Shown: positions 34,686 through 39,214 of the stretch, in pieces
Layout: the number at the start of each line of letters is the position of its first letter
How positions within the stretch are numbered: position 1 is the stretch's first letter
From: Methylotenera sp.
Lineage (GTDB): Bacteria > Pseudomonadota > Gammaproteobacteria > Burkholderiales > Methylophilaceae
DNA length: 64,000 bases
NCBI GenBank assembly: GCA_021732405.1
Contig: JAKFVB010000036.1
Span: 1-64,000 of the forward strand
Direction: 5' to 3'
Notes under the pieces: model-generated
The model's input: only the letters and a program-made list of their open reading frames with translations
What the model was told of the DNA's origin: nothing
The model's database searches: none
Made by a program: the position numbers and the translations under genes

Positions 34686-34762
34686 GCGCCCGTAGCTCAG
34701 CTGGATAGAGTACTTGGCTACGAACCAAGGGGTCAGGAGTTCGAATCTCTTCGGGCGCACCA
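34686..34762 (+). tRNA. tRNA-Arg(ACG), integration target
   Basis: A 77-base tRNA: acceptor stem GCGCCCG/CGGGCGC, anticodon stem CTTGG/CCAAG with loop CTACGAA (anticodon ACG), T-loop GTTCGAA, and encoded CCA. Its last ten bases form the left direct repeat of the integrated element, so the 3' end seen today comes with the element. The acceptor stem is fully paired, so the tRNA should still work. The serine recombinase gene reads through its 3' half on the other strand. Confidence 0.98.
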
Positions 34763-36349
34763 ATCAGTGATAGAAGTGGGCACTTGTCTCAGGTGACCCA
34801 CTTTTATTTTGTCCATTGAAACTGCATGCATTAAAGCACCATAGCTGCCTTTTATCGTGGCAGTGTGATCAGTCACTACAATTTCATCCACTAGCAGGTT
34901 TAAATAACTTTTTGCGAGTGCCGAGTCTTTCGCTAAGAATTTAGTTTTCAAGGTGTTGGCAAATGCTTCTACTTGGCTGGACTTGAGCTGGTCTACAGAG
35001 AGCGAATGATCTCGTCGAACGCCAGCTAATTCGATTAACAGAGCATCTCGTGCCGACTTGTTTTGTTGAGCGCGTCTTTGTACAGTTTCATCTAAATCAA
35101 TCGTACCTGTCTCGATTGCCTCTAATAAACGCCCTTGCCGTTCTTCGATTAACTTCACTTGTCGATTGAGTTGGTTTACTCGCTCTTGCTGGGCGTCTTT
35201 TGAAGTTTTCATACGCTTGCGTAATGCCACCATCATGATTTGCACGCGACTTGGCGTAAATACCTGATCCGCTAATCTATTAAGCACTTGCTGATCAGTT
35301 TTCTCCATTGATAGGTTGCCGCTGCTGCAAGCCTCATTGCCTTTATTTTGGCGTGTGGTGCATTTATAGTATTTATAGCGTCCACTTCTGCCAGTCACTA
35401 ATGTCATGCTGCCACCACATTCGCCACACTTGATTAAGCCAGTCAGCAATGTCGGTGATGATGTGATACGTGGCGGCGTTTTGGCAGGTGCGCGCAGCTC
35501 GCGCTTGCGCCTCACCTGCTCAAAACTTGCCGCATCTACGATCAACGGAATAGGTGTTTTGATCCATTCAGTTGGTGCGCGTTTTTGGAGCGTTTTAGAA
35601 TCAATTACATTGAAATAGTAATCACCCATGTAAAGCGTATCAGATAAGACTTTATGCACTTTCTGAATACCCCAAACATTGCCCCGCATCAGCAAGCCTT
35701 TATCATTCATATGCTTTGTGATTTCTTTAATGCCGAGCACTTTGCCTTGATAGCCGTTAAGGTATAAGTCATAGATCATTTTGACAATGCCAGCCTCAGC
35801 TTCGTTAATTTGCAATTTCTTCTTTTTACGTCCGTGACTGCCTGATGTTTCAGTCGCAACTGCCATATAGCCGAAAGGTGGTTTTGAGCCGTTAAAAAAA
35901 CCCTGACGAGCATTTTCTTTCATGGCGCGTGAAGTGTGTTTAGAGTTCTCTTTAGAGTTATATTCATCAAAGGTGCTGATGATCCTTCTCATCATCTCCC
36001 CTGCTGAATCGTCTGTGGTTAATTGCGTTATGGAGATTACATTAACTTTATTCTTCTTAAGTTTGCGTTCATACACGCCAAACTGAATTGCATCTCGAAA
36101 AAAGCGTGAAAGGCTGTGAATGATAATGGCTTCAAATGCTTGAGGCTTTTGTGCTGCATCATGAATTAGCTGCTGGAATATCGGGCGTTTGTCATCCGTT
36201 GCAGATGCACCTGGTTCAATGTACTCATGCACGACTAAATTACCGTTAGCTTTGCACCATTCGTGTAGCTGTCTCAACTGATCAGGTATAGAAAGATCGT
36301 TGTCTGCTTGTCTAGTGGTTGAAACGCGAGCATATAGGGCTACGTGCAT
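34733..36349 (-). CDS. Large serine recombinase (integrase)
   Basis: Site-specific recombinase of the resolvase/invertase superfamily, presumably driving integration into tRNA-Arg. The ATG at 36349 with GGAG seven bases upstream gives 538 residues (a TTG four codons earlier is rejected). The catalytic domain starts MHVALYARVSTTRQ with the nucleophile S10, and RPIFQQLI and SLSRFFRD lie further on. A recombinase domain follows (PPFGY…), then a zinc ribbon (CGECGG…KCTTR…ACSSG, about 310-355) and a coiled coil (about 375-440). The last nine residues (WCARRDSNS) are encoded by the antisense of tRNA-Arg. It lies 19 bases after the 47-residue gene. Confidence 0.92.
   Translation of the reverse strand: MHVALYARVSTTRQADNDLSIPDQLRQLHEWCKANGNLVVHEYIEPGASATDDKRPIFQQLIHDAAQKPQAFEAIIIHSLSRFFRDAIQFGVYERKLKKNKVNVISITQLTTDDSAGEMMRRIISTFDEYNSKENSKHTSRAMKENARQGFFNGSKPPFGYMAVATETSGSHGRKKKKLQINEAEAGIVKMIYDLYLNGYQGKVLGIKEITKHMNDKGLLMRGNVWGIQKVHKVLSDTLYMGDYYFNVIDSKTLQKRAPTEWIKTPIPLIVDAASFEQVRRKRELRAPAKTPPRITSSPTLLTGLIKCGECGGSMTLVTGRSGRYKYYKCTTRQNKGNEACSSGNLSMEKTDQQVLNRLADQVFTPSRVQIMMVALRKRMKTSKDAQQERVNQLNRQVKLIEERQGRLLEAIETGTIDLDETVQRRAQQNKSARDALLIELAGVRRDHSLSVDQLKSSQVEAFANTLKTKFLAKDSALAKSYLNLLVDEIVVTDHTATIKGSYGALMHAVSMDKIKVGHLRQVPTSITDWCARRDSNS
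34753..34762 (+). repeat. Left attachment-site repeat (attL core)
   Basis: GGGCGCACCA, the last ten bases of tRNA-Arg, identical to 39159-39168. Bases on both sides differ from those at the right copy, apart from scattered matches. Confidence 0.8.
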
Positions 36350-36368
36350 GAGGTTCTCCAATTACAGT

Positions 36369-36512
36369 TTAAACATTCTGATCATCTTGCATCATCGCAA
36401 GAATTAAATCAGGCATAACCGATTCAATTAATGCTAATTCTTCAAGCGTAATATTGGCAGCAATATCTTGAGTGACATATTGAATGTCGAATTCTAAATA
36501 ATCTTCGTTCAC
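36369..36512 (-). CDS. Hypothetical 47-residue acidic protein
   Basis: A GTG start overlaps the stop of the preceding gene (GTGA), a strong coupling signal. The product begins (M)NEDYLEFDIQYVTQDIAANI and is very acidic, mostly helical by eye (TLEELALIESVMPDLILAMMQ). No family is recognised. It lies between the 83-residue gene and the recombinase in the same operon and is short enough to be missed by automatic annotation. Possible roles include accessory replication or recombination-directionality functions, but nothing in the sequence proves this. Confidence 0.6.
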   Translation of the reverse strand: MNEDYLEFDIQYVTQDIAANITLEELALIESVMPDLILAMMQDDQNV

Positions 36513-36760
36513 TCATTTGAGCACCCCCTTTCTTGCGTGGTATATTCCTGCCCATTCCTGTTTTTAATTGAATGATTTCCTTCATTCAATAATTGATCTA
36601 ATTCTGATTCTAAGCCGTTTTTGCCAAGCTCATCTAATACTAAACTTCTGTAAGCTTTGAATTGGTTTTCAGTCATAGCGATTTGCGCATATGTGAGTAT
36701 TTTACTTTTGCGAACATCCAGCAATGCTTTGATTGATTTTAATAAGTGAGCCGCTACCAT
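36509..36760 (-). CDS. Hypothetical 83-residue protein
   Basis: ATG at 36760 overlaps the rep stop by seven bases (ATGGTAG). The product starts MVAAHLLKSIKALLDVRKSK and is charged and helical (MTENQFKAYRSLVLDELGK; LESELDQLLNEG), with no membrane helix or Cys/His motif. I do not recognise the family. Its tight packing between rep and the 47-residue gene suggests a role in replication control or excision of the element. Confidence 0.7.
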   Translation of the reverse strand: MVAAHLLKSIKALLDVRKSKILTYAQIAMTENQFKAYRSLVLDELGKNGLESELDQLLNEGNHSIKNRNGQEYTTQERGCSNE

Positions 36761-37830
36761 TCGCCCAACTTCATTTCTTTAACACGTCTGTTTACATCCA
36801 TTTGCCAAGTCAACGGATCATGCAGCTCTGTAATACGATTTTGTAAATGCGAAAACGCTTCATCCATATAAGACTTGTCTGAACCTGTATAAAGCGCATC
36901 AATGGCAGCTACCCGTTTGACGTAGCCATAAACACTAATAGCGATATATGTTAAACGCTCATCTAATAAATCAAGTTCGTTTAAATCGCGCACTACACCC
37001 AAACCATACATTTGATTGACCCGTTGAATTAAGTCATCCCACAGTGGATGCAGTGCCCACCGTGATTTATTAGTATCGTTTGATTTGATTCTTAATGTGG
37101 TGTGTTCTTTTGTGAGTAGGCGCAGCAAATCGCCTTGACGTTCGTTCAAGCTTTCAAATGATGAAATGCCGAGCTTGCGGAGTTGGTCTTTTCTAATCTG
37201 CCATTCAATACGCCAAACATCTTGATCCATGCCCCATAGTTTAAAAAACCATGTCTTTTTGCTCTTTTCGTTGATTTCATCAACTTTGTTATATACGCGC
37301 AGCTTGACGAGATCAGAACCAATATCAAAGGTTTGCACTTTGCCATTTTTACGATGTTGAGTATCTTTTGCTGCAATGGTTACAAAGCTATCTTCATCAA
37401 AGTCAATTTCAGTTAGATGATAATCAAAAGCATAATCCACACGCGATAGGCGTTCGGGTTGATAAGGCATCATACCGATGGATTTAGCCCAAGCTAAAAA
37501 ACGATGATGTAAAGCTAAAGCCCCGTAATGCCATAGAGCAATGCTGCGAAACCTAACAAAGAAGTTTGGTTTATTAAACTCACCAAACTGAATCATGAAC
37601 GCATCGTTTTCGATGACGAACGGATAACCGCTTGAGGTACCGTGTGAGGCGATCAAAAATTCTTCTGATCCAATTTGAATCGGTTTAGGTTTGGTAACTT
37701 TCGCACGCACCATTGATTCTTTTTGTGCTGCCAGTTCAATAAAATCAAGCTTATAGTCATCAGTGCCGATTAGATAATAGGCGCATTCGATGGTGTCAAA
37801 GCCAGCAATAAGATGTTTGAATGTAAACAT
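36754..37830 (-). CDS. Replication initiation protein (Rep_trans/PF02486-like)
   Basis: Likely rolling-circle initiator that nicks the plus origin. The 358-residue protein shows features I associate with this family: an N-terminal GFDTIECAYY, FGEFNKPNFFVRFRSIALW, RLSRVDYAFDY, KLRVYNKVDEI (likely the catalytic Tyr motif) and WRIEWQIRKDQLRKLGISSF. The start overlaps the stop of the upstream RHH gene (TAATG) and the end overlaps the 83-residue gene, so expression is tied to the regulator. The family assignment is from motif pattern only. A related reading, a filamentous-phage initiator, is possible. Confidence 0.75.
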   Translation of the reverse strand: MFTFKHLIAGFDTIECAYYLIGTDDYKLDFIELAAQKESMVRAKVTKPKPIQIGSEEFLIASHGTSSGYPFVIENDAFMIQFGEFNKPNFFVRFRSIALWHYGALALHHRFLAWAKSIGMMPYQPERLSRVDYAFDYHLTEIDFDEDSFVTIAAKDTQHRKNGKVQTFDIGSDLVKLRVYNKVDEINEKSKKTWFFKLWGMDQDVWRIEWQIRKDQLRKLGISSFESLNERQGDLLRLLTKEHTTLRIKSNDTNKSRWALHPLWDDLIQRVNQMYGLGVVRDLNELDLLDERLTYIAISVYGYVKRVAAIDALYTGSDKSYMDEAFSHLQNRITELHDPLTWQMDVNRRVKEMKLGEW

Positions 37831-38261
37831 TACTTATCGAAGTCTGATTGCTTTAACCATAATTTATCGTGGTAAATATTTTCTGGTTTATCGTTGCCTA
37901 ATTCTCTTTCTAACTCTTTATATAAACCATTCACTAAGTTTCTATACTCATCACGCTTACCAGCAACAACAAAGAGAGGTTCATAATCAACCCCTTCATG
38001 ATCTGCAATTCGTTTTTCCAATAGCTCTTCTTCATAATTTAATGGTTGACCTTTTTGTATAGGTAAATTCAATTCGAGATTTTCTAAAGCAACTGTGAGC
38101 AAGTCTGCAACAATCTGGGTGCGATTTTTTTGTGGGTACATTATTTCTAGAGCTGCTATTTTTGCAGCAACATGCACAGGCAATCTAAAGGAAAATTGCT
38201 TGGAAACAAGCCTGCTATTGTCAGGGCTTGACCAAACATCATGTAAGTGTGCAGTTTTCAT
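37830..38261 (-). CDS. Ribbon-helix-helix type regulator
   Basis: First gene of the element operon, 143 residues. Residues about 20-63 fit a ribbon-helix-helix fold: a strand KQFSFRLPVH, helix VAAKIAALEIM, turn with N/R/T, and helix TQIVADLLTVALENLE. The C-terminal half is charged and helical. The gene lies next to two direct copies of CGAATGTC in its promoter, one overlapping the -35 box, so it probably represses its own operon. It may instead be a plasmid-copy or partition-type regulator. The stop overlaps the rep start. Confidence 0.7.
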   Translation of the reverse strand: MKTAHLHDVWSSPDNSRLVSKQFSFRLPVHVAAKIAALEIMYPQKNRTQIVADLLTVALENLELNLPIQKGQPLNYEEELLEKRIADHEGVDYEPLFVVAGKRDEYRNLVNGLYKELERELGNDKPENIYHDKLWLKQSDFDK

Positions 38262-38271
38262 ATAATTTATC

Positions 38272-38321
38272 CGAATGTCTATTGAATTTTGTTTAAATTA
38301 AATATATGTCATACGAATGTC
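38272..38321. repeat. Pair of CGAATGTC direct repeats (candidate operator)
   Basis: Copies at 38272-38279 and 38314-38321, each preceded by AT(A/C), 42 bases apart, about four helical turns. The upper copy overlaps the -35 box of the rep operon. They are candidate binding sites for the RHH protein. Confidence 0.6.
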
Positions 38322-38323
38322 AA
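38295..38323 (-). promoter_or_regulatory. Promoter of the rep/recombinase operon
   Basis: On the minus strand: consensus -35 TTGACA (38318-38323), a 17-base spacer and -10 TAATTT (38295-38300). The -35 box is embedded in TTGACATTCG, which includes the CGAATGTC repeat, so a bound repressor would block polymerase. Confidence 0.65.
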
Positions 38324-38341
38324 GTAATATTTTTCATTATT

Positions 38342-38369
38342 TTGATAATTGCAATTTTTAAACTATAGT
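38342..38369 (+). promoter_or_regulatory. Promoter of the cargo gene
   Basis: TTGATA (38342-38347), 16-base spacer, TATAGT (38364-38369). It would drive the divergent gene at 38474 through a leader containing a hairpin. Confidence 0.45.
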
Positions 38370-38391
38370 TTGCTTTATGTATTTATAGCCC

Positions 38392-38410
38392 CCCGTGTTA
38401 CATGCACGGG
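38392..38410 (+). other. Leader hairpin (attenuator or replication-origin candidate)
   Basis: CCCGTG / CACGGG stem with the 7-base loop TTACATG, followed by TTTTATAA. It sits between the divergent promoters and the cargo gene. It could act as a terminator/attenuator for the cargo gene. As the only strong GC hairpin in an AT-rich region of the element, it could also be the double-strand origin nicked by Rep. Confidence 0.45.
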
Positions 38411-38473
38411 TTTTATAAGCAATAATGTTTGATAAAAGGTTTTTTTGATGCCAATGTTATTAAGATCATAATA

Positions 38474-39115
38474 ATGAATAATCCAAATGGTGTTTATGGT
38501 TTCAGACGGATTATTTTTGACCAAAACATTTCTACAACACAGAATATTATTCTTATTCAAGGAGCTGATGCATTGTTAGCTACAATTCGATTAATAGAAA
38601 ATGTCCGTAAACTTGTAGATGAAAGCCCTCTTAAAAATGCTTACATATCTCCAGATATTCCCTTCACACTAAGCAATCTATGCTATCAGGCAGGATTGGC
38701 ATCAACAATTCTATTTAATGGATCTGCAAAAGGCTATAAAGAAAGTAAGCTTTCATTTAAGCTTCGAATTGAACGTGTAAATTATGTGAACCATTTGTGC
38801 AAAACTCAAGGACTAGAAACACCTACCCTCAAGAGTCGATCTATAAGAAATGCACTTACACATATTGATGAATACTTAGCCGATGCCTTAACAGCTGAGC
38901 CTAATGTAGCGTGGTTCATTGACACCGCCATAGAGTCACGTGATCAATTTGAACCTATTTCTGGATTAAAGACTAAATTTTGCCGAGCGTACATTAAAGA
39001 TGAAGACAAAATTATTCATCTAGATAAAGAAGTTTCTCTATTGAGTCTTCAAGAGGAGTGCACGGCATTGTTAGCAGTAGTCTTTGGTCAATCTGTATCT
39101 AAGGTGAGTCAATAA
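38474..39115 (+). CDS. Cargo protein with HEPN-like R-X4-H motif
   Basis: Sole plus-strand gene of the element, 213 residues from ATG 38474. A TTG at 38429 would add 15 residues and lacks support. The middle is helical and contains R125-N-A-L-T-H130, matching the HEPN nuclease motif R-X4-6-H with the common Asn after Arg. Helix SLSLQEECTALLAVVFG ends the protein. No MNT-type nucleotidyltransferase partner is present. HEPN proteins are ribonucleases in many toxin, abortive-infection and defence systems, so a defence or stabilisation role for the cargo is plausible, but the motif alone is short and could be chance. Confidence 0.6.
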   Translation: MNNPNGVYGFRRIIFDQNISTTQNIILIQGADALLATIRLIENVRKLVDESPLKNAYISPDIPFTLSNLCYQAGLASTILFNGSAKGYKESKLSFKLRIERVNYVNHLCKTQGLETPTLKSRSIRNALTHIDEYLADALTAEPNVAWFIDTAIESRDQFEPISGLKTKFCRAYIKDEDKIIHLDKEVSLLSLQEECTALLAVVFGQSVSKVSQ

Positions 39116-39158
39116 GATACTATAATCAATTCTGTCCAGTACCCAGCACTTTCATCTT

Positions 39159-39168
39159 GGGCGCACCA
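39159..39168 (+). repeat. Right attachment-site repeat (attR core)
   Basis: GGGCGCACCA, identical to the tRNA-Arg 3' end. Presumed to be the original chromosomal 3' end of the tRNA, since a terminator-like hairpin follows nine bases later. Confidence 0.8.
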
Positions 39169-39176
39169 TATAAAAC

Positions 39177-39214
39177 AAAGGCTTATAGTTTAACGACTGT
39201 AAGCCTTTTGTATT
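39177..39214 (+). terminator. Terminator stranded by the insertion
   Basis: A 12-bp stem (AAAGGCTTATAG / CTGTAAGCCTTT, one G-T pair), 8-base loop, then TTTTGTATTT. No gene directly upstream needs it now. Rejoined across the repeat it would lie nine bases after tRNA-Arg. Confidence 0.75.

Follow-up and report, generated by a model that had tools for sequence, protein, structure and literature searches.

In the relevant passages of a 2011 survey of actinomycete integrative and conjugative elements (AICEs), serine recombinases in tRNA genes are called rare, and the cases named are phiRSM1 and eight mycobacterial recombinases that use tRNA-Leu (PMC3218068). A passage of the 2014/15 Islander database paper goes further and states that tRNA integration by serine recombinases was not known (PMC4383910). 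The phiRSM1 enzyme, phiRSM-Int, is described in part of its source as experimentally active, catalysing both integration and excision (PMC4471427). Here we analyse a 64,000-nucleotide stretch of Methylotenera sp. (contig JAKFVB010000036.1, positions 1 to 64,000; hereafter the window), in which a 4,406-bp segment abuts a tRNA-Arg gene. This segment is likely to be a compact integrative element, inserted at the tRNA 3' end by a large serine recombinase (LSR) and carrying exchangeable cargo. It is a real and precisely bounded element that combines known kinds of component, namely integrative elements with LSRs and Rep_trans initiators. The unusual points are the tRNA specialization of the LSR, an attachment (att) site inside the LSR gene, a 47-aa partner protein and the defence cargo of relatives. 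The open-licence literature that we searched does not name the family.

Insertion at the tRNA-Arg gene

The target gene, tRNA-Arg(ACG), occupies 34686-34762 on the plus strand and is called in full by ARAGORN, in keeping with the proposal of the initial annotation that insertion leaves the tRNA intact. Its last 10 bp are the left copy of the core, GGGCGCACCA (attL, 34753-34762, plus strand), identified by a repeat search and from the empty site. The repeat search places the right copy (attR) at 39159-39168 on the same strand. The exact core occurs twice in the window; when up to one mismatch is allowed there are nine matches against 3.5 expected, and the 10-mer repeat by itself is weak evidence for the element ends. 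The decisive evidence is an empty tRNA-Arg site, sought in relatives with a 389-bp query that joins the two window flanks without the insert. In G008, which belongs to the same genus, the whole query matches without a break (389/389 bp at 99%); in G013 it has a contiguous match over its positions 1-332 (93%). Because the joined flanks are uninterrupted in G008, comparison of the sequences establishes the insertion and both of its ends, with the precision of the core repeat. The initial annotation had proposed an insert bounded by repeats beside tRNA-Arg; the two exact cores, the empty site and the att geometry agree, with 34763-39168 as the insert proper.

Two hairpins mark the exchange at the tRNA 3' end. 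The first, with a T-rich tail (39177-39208, plus strand, z -5.3), is probably the original tRNA-Arg terminator, displaced by 4.4 kb, since the same hairpin stands directly 3' of tRNA-Arg in G008. The second is a strong hairpin with a T-rich stretch just past the tRNA (34763-34820, plus strand; dG -25.5 kcal/mol, z -5.7), the probable replacement terminator. It is absent from the list of a simple terminator scan, and the strand opposite it encodes the LSR C-terminal part.

The element could instead be a decayed, immobile relic, and relics of the family exist: in G007 (L144:458-615) tRNA-Arg is followed by the att arm and, of the LSR, by nothing but the final 36 codons, and the sole match in G057 is a fragment of the replication protein Rep. 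For the window copy this explanation is very improbable, however, since every gene is an open frame, neither an att arm nor a core is missing, and the empty site in the relative differs by about 1%.

The recombinase gene, its relatives and the att site

All six genes proposed initially were found as open frames. Five are on the minus strand: a small regulator resembling ribbon-helix-helix (RHH) proteins (143 aa, 37830-38261), which was assigned by eye from its sequence and has no Pfam or NCBIfam family match; Rep (358 aa, 36754-37830), with a Rep_trans-type initiator fold; an 83-aa protein (36509-36760); the 47-aa protein (36369-36512), a candidate recombination directionality factor; and the LSR (34733-36349), which has 538 aa as integrated. 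The sixth, a 213-aa cargo gene recognized as an open frame and submitted to family scans, is on the plus strand (38474-39115). The overlaps are 1 nt between the regulator and rep, 7 nt between rep and the 83-aa gene, and 4 nt between the 83-aa and 47-aa genes. A 19-nt gap separates the 47-aa gene from the LSR ATG (36349), or 7 nt if an upstream TTG is considered, and the earlier count of four overlapping junctions is rejected in favour of three.

The LSR exceeds the Pfam cut-offs for Resolvase (PF00239, 96.6 bits), Recombinase (PF07508, 48) and Zn_ribbon_recom (PF13408, 63.1), and its ARVST catalytic-serine region is conserved in all seven aligned sequences. Its stop codon, at 34733, falls within the tRNA gene and hence beyond the element boundary, and the last codons are antisense to tRNA-Arg. 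A serine recombinase beside a tRNA 3' end is thus borne out. Equally, the expectation of no relaxase or coat gene agrees with scans of the six element proteins against Pfam, PHROGs and NCBIfam, which matched no canonical relaxase and no coat, Zot, assembly or satellite family; the family scans also gave no match to an FtsK/TraB-type translocase or a TcpA coupling protein.

Relatives were collected by searching for Rep in four overlapping sets, with full-length related proteins in 6 of 149 relatives (including the window genome), 6 of 399 genomes of the order, 2 of 369 of the class and 8 of 398 of the phylum. Together with one extra Methylophilus genome and one IMG/VR contig, these yield 18 distinct loci (the window, L020-L024, L028, L064-L067, L107 and L162-L167). 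One member is carried by Methylophilus methylotrophus DSM 46235 (L022/L027). Identity to the window Rep is 47-81% in 14 of the 17 other loci and 34-37% in L165-L167. An LSR stands beside Rep in all 18, cut by the contig end in L162, and homologues of the 83-aa protein adjoin Rep in most relatives. The block of rep, in most cases the 83-aa gene, the 47-aa gene and the recombinase gene is conserved in relatives.

An intact tRNA lies at the LSR 3' end in 10 of the 18 loci: Arg(ACG) in the window and L023, Arg(CCG) in L021, Glu in L066 and L166, and Asn in L022, L028, L064, L065 and L164. By eye, the LSR end of L020, L024, L163 and L167 runs over partial, 3'-part tRNA-like sequence, and L067 and L162 are cut by contig ends. 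The layout of L020 suggests tandem integration: its nearest intact tRNA-Asn is some 13 kb upstream, and a distant tyrosine-integrase relative (27-30% identity) stands between.

Right ends were sought in 11 elements by starting from the known left end and then using the 8-base arm and the core. The best right site has identical spacing in seven of them, giving lengths of 4,406 bp for the window element, 5,032 for L021, 4,389 for L065, 4,819 for L024, 5,919 for L023, 5,051 for L020 and 6,819 for L064. In five of these seven the right end fits with 0-2 mismatches over 18 scored bases. In an inverted-repeat search with 30-nt arms, L065 was the only element whose right end was among the best matches. 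The att layout reads CCAGT(G/A)CCCA or a variant, 13 bases and the 10-base core; on the left side, the core is followed by 14 bases and TGGGCACT. In the window the att search places the left arm, TGGGCACT, at 34777-34784 and the right arm, CCAGTACCCA, at 39136-39145 (both plus strand). By their sequence the arms form a conserved inverted pair, CCAGTGCCCA-N13-core-N14-TGGGCACT overall. The core tracks the host tRNA (GGGCGCACCA, GGGCGCGCCA and CGGGGAGCCA), and in L020, L024 and L064 the right copy matches the left contiguously in the last six bases only. In L023 a difference between attR and attL at core position 7 would place the crossover within CCA, but the dyad of the arms is centred on core position 6.

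The right ends of L023 (G080, tRNA-Arg) and L064 (G298, tRNA-Asn) are followed by sequence that encodes the C-terminal portion of a tyrosine integrase; in both, serine-type and tyrosine-type elements stand in tandem at one tRNA 3' end. L086 (G031) was considered as a simple empty counterpart of the L023 site and rejected, because a tyrosine integrase sits there and the L023 element is itself in tandem with such an element. At L146, also in G031, a tyrosine integrase stands alone beside tRNA-Arg.

The LSR frame runs across the att site of its own element. It stays open through the inferred circle junction in each of the seven mapped elements, with a stop 54, 57 or 60 nt beyond. For the window, the frame reading predicts that the 3' coding end used in the circle lies at 39109-39168 (minus strand), parted from the gene by integration, and that the protein would have 548 aa and end in CAQDESAGYWTELIIVSY. 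The circle tails of the seven elements, WCAQDESAGYWTELIIVSY, WRAQAYEVGHWQEIILVP, WRAQEDESGHWKEKFSVI, WLPELGKSGHWLEVLRMP, WLAKTDKSGHWIMQVRI, WLTKTDKTENWIIKLFIT and WLTKTDKTGNWIIKILV, have 17-19 residues and are alike, though the LSRs are often just ~50% identical and the cargo differs. In the integrated state the tail consists of tRNA-antisense codons (ARRDSNS, LGSNQG and similar). The frame reads through the circle junction and the integrated LSR ends in the tRNA; integration therefore appears to swap the LSR tail, the free and integrated states encoding different C-termini.

Some of the likeness among the tails has another possible source. The att arm codes for SGHW in the circle tail, and the tails may accordingly be conserved in part as a DNA site. 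In one other frame the first stop is similarly placed in six of the seven elements (after 4-7 codons, in the conserved arm and core or adjoining them), and in the remaining frame the first stops are spread over 13-27 codons. That the stop is nearly constant and that hydrophobic residues occur past the arm speaks for selection on the protein as well. The integrase IntP of phage Mx8 is said to be altered at its C-terminus by integration, which would be a precedent. We infer that the tail controls the direction of recombination.

Rep, the 47-aa protein and the cargo slot

The initial annotation called Rep an initiator and proposed a structural check, which supports the assignment. The model used was built from 7 sequences (pLDDT 70.6) and is poor beyond residue ~280; an earlier model from 4 sequences (pLDDT 35.4) was dropped. 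It matches the solved initiator 4cij in Foldseek (E 4.7e-9), with Z scores of 12.3 to the staphylococcal initiator 4cwe and 12.0 to 4cij over 209-217 residues, against 7.5 for the next fold, the unrelated TBP. Furthermore, a sequence profile from seven Reps finds 4cij (E 0.0015). As modelled, Rep shares its fold with the rolling-circle initiators of plasmids. Y180, E185, D132, D136 and E209 are invariant in both Rep alignments and are candidates for the catalytic tyrosine and the three acidic metal ligands.

The fold is common, over ~210 residues, to RepDE (4cwc/4cwe) and GstRep (4cij), that is, to Rep_trans initiators and MobT relaxases. Compared with these, the Rep of the element is 15-18% identical, scores below the Pfam cut-off, occurs in Pseudomonadota and is tied to an LSR. 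The segment could be an integrative mobilizable element (IME) in which the Rep_trans-type protein serves as a MobT-like relaxase and lets the circle hitch a conjugation system, with replication secondary; we regard this as possible but on balance unlikely. Parts of two sources describe Rep_trans proteins of Firmicutes integrative and conjugative elements (ICEs) as both relaxases and replication initiators, and one IME type as using its Rep_trans protein as relaxase (PMC5704250, PMC7563843). As described there, however, MobT ICEs in Firmicutes have TcpA coupling proteins (PMC5704250, PMC7563843), and none was matched in the element, although TcpA is also lacking in 35 of the 118 streptococcal IMEs that have relaxases of this type. 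In one relative, L165 (G1186; L165:4918-6650), the Rep-LSR block adjoins a gene for a MobA/VirD2-type Relaxase (E 5.9e-19) and a gene weakly resembling MobC. With a separate canonical relaxase present, the Rep of that element need not act as one.

Inoviridae replication proteins are among the viral structures that the Rep model matches, the L107 contig comes from IMG/VR, and phiRSM1 of Ralstonia is described, in part of its source, as using a serine recombinase at a tRNA-Ser gene (PMC4471427). These points would suit a reduced filamentous phage, or the satellite of one, packaged by a helper inovirus. We consider this improbable. None of the six proteins matched a coat, Zot or assembly family, in scans that very small coat proteins can escape; the cargo of relatives is defence-like rather than morphogenetic; and L107 has no phage gene by eye, the one open reading frame (ORF) of it that was given to Pfam having no phage family.

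The 47-aa protein was followed with a profile from seven homologues of Rep elements. It also finds homologues in L021, L023, L067 and L107; L022 has no copy that the profile recognizes. The profile was then applied to loci with related LSRs that lack this Rep, in 24 of 33 such loci (5,005 ORFs), nine being left out because the LSR starts near a contig edge. The matches are individually weak, with a best E value of 0.014 and an eighth of 0.92. All of the top eight ORFs, and 12 of the top 17, end within 150 bp upstream of the LSR on the same strand, against a background of 70/5,005; the loci share ancestry, so p-values are descriptive and inflated, and the case rests on ORF position. The positional link of 47-aa look-alikes to the LSR is clear from these comparisons. 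By eye, many of the small or medium-sized upstream proteins (L108-L140 loci), likewise candidate directionality factors, share a C-terminal motif of about DDWPE-(I/V)PVTEAE(I/L)-VFEAWFGDL, and a corresponding regular expression finds 16 of the 24 loci against 4 of 4,824 background ORFs; it was fitted post hoc, and the profile alone is independent. A directionality factor for the LSR is the natural guess for the 47-aa protein.

Cargo proteins of 10 of the 18 elements were run through PADLOC, with L021, L024, L065, L067, L107, L163, L164 and L166 omitted. Seven of the 10 have defence models at E<1e-10 in the cargo position: PDC-M36A/B in L023 (8e-240), a PDC-M36A-like protein in L064 (2e-22), the PARIS pair AriA/AriB in L066 (6e-30 and 1e-20), a Mrr-type endonuclease/PDC-S02 in L022 (8e-17; Pfam Mrr_cat 1.6e-30), PDC-S31 in L162 (2e-27), SIR2-HerA in L165 (1e-170 and 4e-283) and Avs2 in L167 (3.5e-165). 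L028 has a weak match to PD-T7-4 (2e-5). For the 213-aa cargo protein of the window, a search of the 148 other relatives gave no homologue; it contains RNALTH, which we take to be a possible R-x4-H motif of HEPN-type ribonucleases.

A more distant Rep family, with frames of mostly 440-500 aa that are 24-32% identical to the window Rep, was found in 43 rows, or 42 distinct places. A tyrosine integrase lies in the 1.5-kb flank in 40 of the 43 rows and a serine recombinase in none, seven of the integrase queries having been taken from these same loci. In the same search, all 10 distinct full-length related Reps have a serine recombinase and no tyrosine integrase in the flank, and the fragment L008 has neither. 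Five of seven tyrosine-type loci that were read further have a tRNA at the integrase end (Arg twice, Met, Lys and Phe) and the same gene order; L069 and L075 show no tRNA there. Because both Rep families sit with integrases at tRNA genes, two related initiator lineages share a niche with unrelated integrases. The tyrosine-type loci (L009-L019, L034-L063, L142 and L143; for example L072:6199-9799) often have a conserved protein of ~250-300 aa upstream of Rep, with no Pfam or PADLOC match in the copies tested. Near one tyrosine-type Rep element, in G703 (L071:10296-12017), is a PDC-M68B defence-candidate protein (E 3.7e-154).

Proposed mechanism and comparison with known systems

We propose that the LSR recombines the att site of the element with the tRNA 3' end, the tRNA staying intact and receiving a terminator from the element. 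In the circle, the LSR gene would span the junction and end in the 17-19 residue tail, which integration would replace with tRNA-antisense codons. The 47-aa partner may help the LSR to excise the element, and Rep probably copies the excised circle. The regulator would control the operon, and the cargo would pay the host: what lies between the regulator and the distant att site appears to be exchangeable, and in several relatives it includes predicted defence genes. Defence by the cargo of this copy is conceivable, as is movement of the element between cells.

Several observations weigh against this picture. The Rep score for Rep_trans (PF02486) is 22.4 of the required 29.6 bits (E 1e-4). A search of 72,556 plasmid records found no close Rep and no free plasmid form, with two matches at 24-25%, a search of 50,697 phage records likewise found no close Rep, and the window Rep by itself had no match in IMG/VR; the self-replication put forward initially is not established, there being no close Rep among plasmid or phage records. 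The weaker right ends have 4 mismatches in L064 (next best 6) and 5 in L020 (next best 7). No right end was found by the arm and core search in L022, L028, L066 and L067, and no candidate was accepted in L163-L167. Among defence-positive elements both ends are mapped in L023 and L064 only; in L022, L028, L066, L162, L165 and L167 the cargo adjoins the block without a mapped boundary. PADLOC finds no defence family in the cargo of the window or of L020. Finally, the same genes outside any tRNA were named at the outset as a sign against insertion of this kind, and this is seen in part, L107 and L165 (2 of 18 loci) having no tRNA at the LSR end.

A bolder reading takes the elements as an undescribed family of very small, self-copying, defence-carrying elements with a clade of tail-switched LSRs specific for tRNA 3' ends, the 47-aa protein as a new type of directionality factor, and the 213-aa cargo as an unknown anti-phage gene. 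Taken as a whole, we think this doubtful. The LSR clade itself reaches beyond the Rep elements. The LSR profile yields 31 IMG/VR loci (L107 included); ARAGORN finds a tRNA (Arg or Ser) overlapping the LSR end in six of them (L109, L110, L117, L124, L131 and L133), and by eye 12 of the 31 LSR C-termini read DSN, like an antisense tRNA T-arm, the others being cut, frameshifted or unclear. An LSR ~37% identical to that of the window element stands beside trb conjugation genes on an Enterobacter plasmid with resistance genes (L140, NZ_CP011583.1). With visible att half-sites and a frame that crosses att, the clade allows direct tests of how serine recombinases target tRNA genes, and it is a source of new site-specific integrases. 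Directionality factors are hard to find, and the 47-aa partner is a concrete candidate for one. New anti-phage genes may be sought in the cargo slot, which has room for one to a few genes and is bordered on one side by the regulator and on the other by an att arm, both fixed.

Among known systems, P4-like and PICI (phage-inducible chromosomal island) satellites are small integrated elements with defence cargo; the present element differs in its integrase and initiator and has no PHROGs satellite gene among its six proteins. Actinobacterial AICEs carry a dsDNA-translocase transfer gene, whereas no translocase family matched the six proteins here. As far as the survey passages describe them, the mycobacterial AICEs are alike in pairing a serine recombinase at tRNA-Leu with a replication protein (PMC3218068). 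From the part of its source that covers integration, phiRSM1 of Ralstonia is also alike, with a resolvase/invertase-type serine recombinase at a 13-bp stretch of the tRNA-Ser 3' end (PMC4471427). It differs as a 9-kb virion-forming phage, the element proteins having no matched morphogenesis family. Streptococcal IMEs with a Rep_trans/MobT relaxase are, like this element, small and integrative; in the portions of the sources concerned, those with site-specific serine recombinases are said to disrupt genes and those that integrate at tRNA genes use tyrosine integrases (PMC5704250, PMC7563843), in contrast to the serine recombinase that here adjoins an intact tRNA-Arg.

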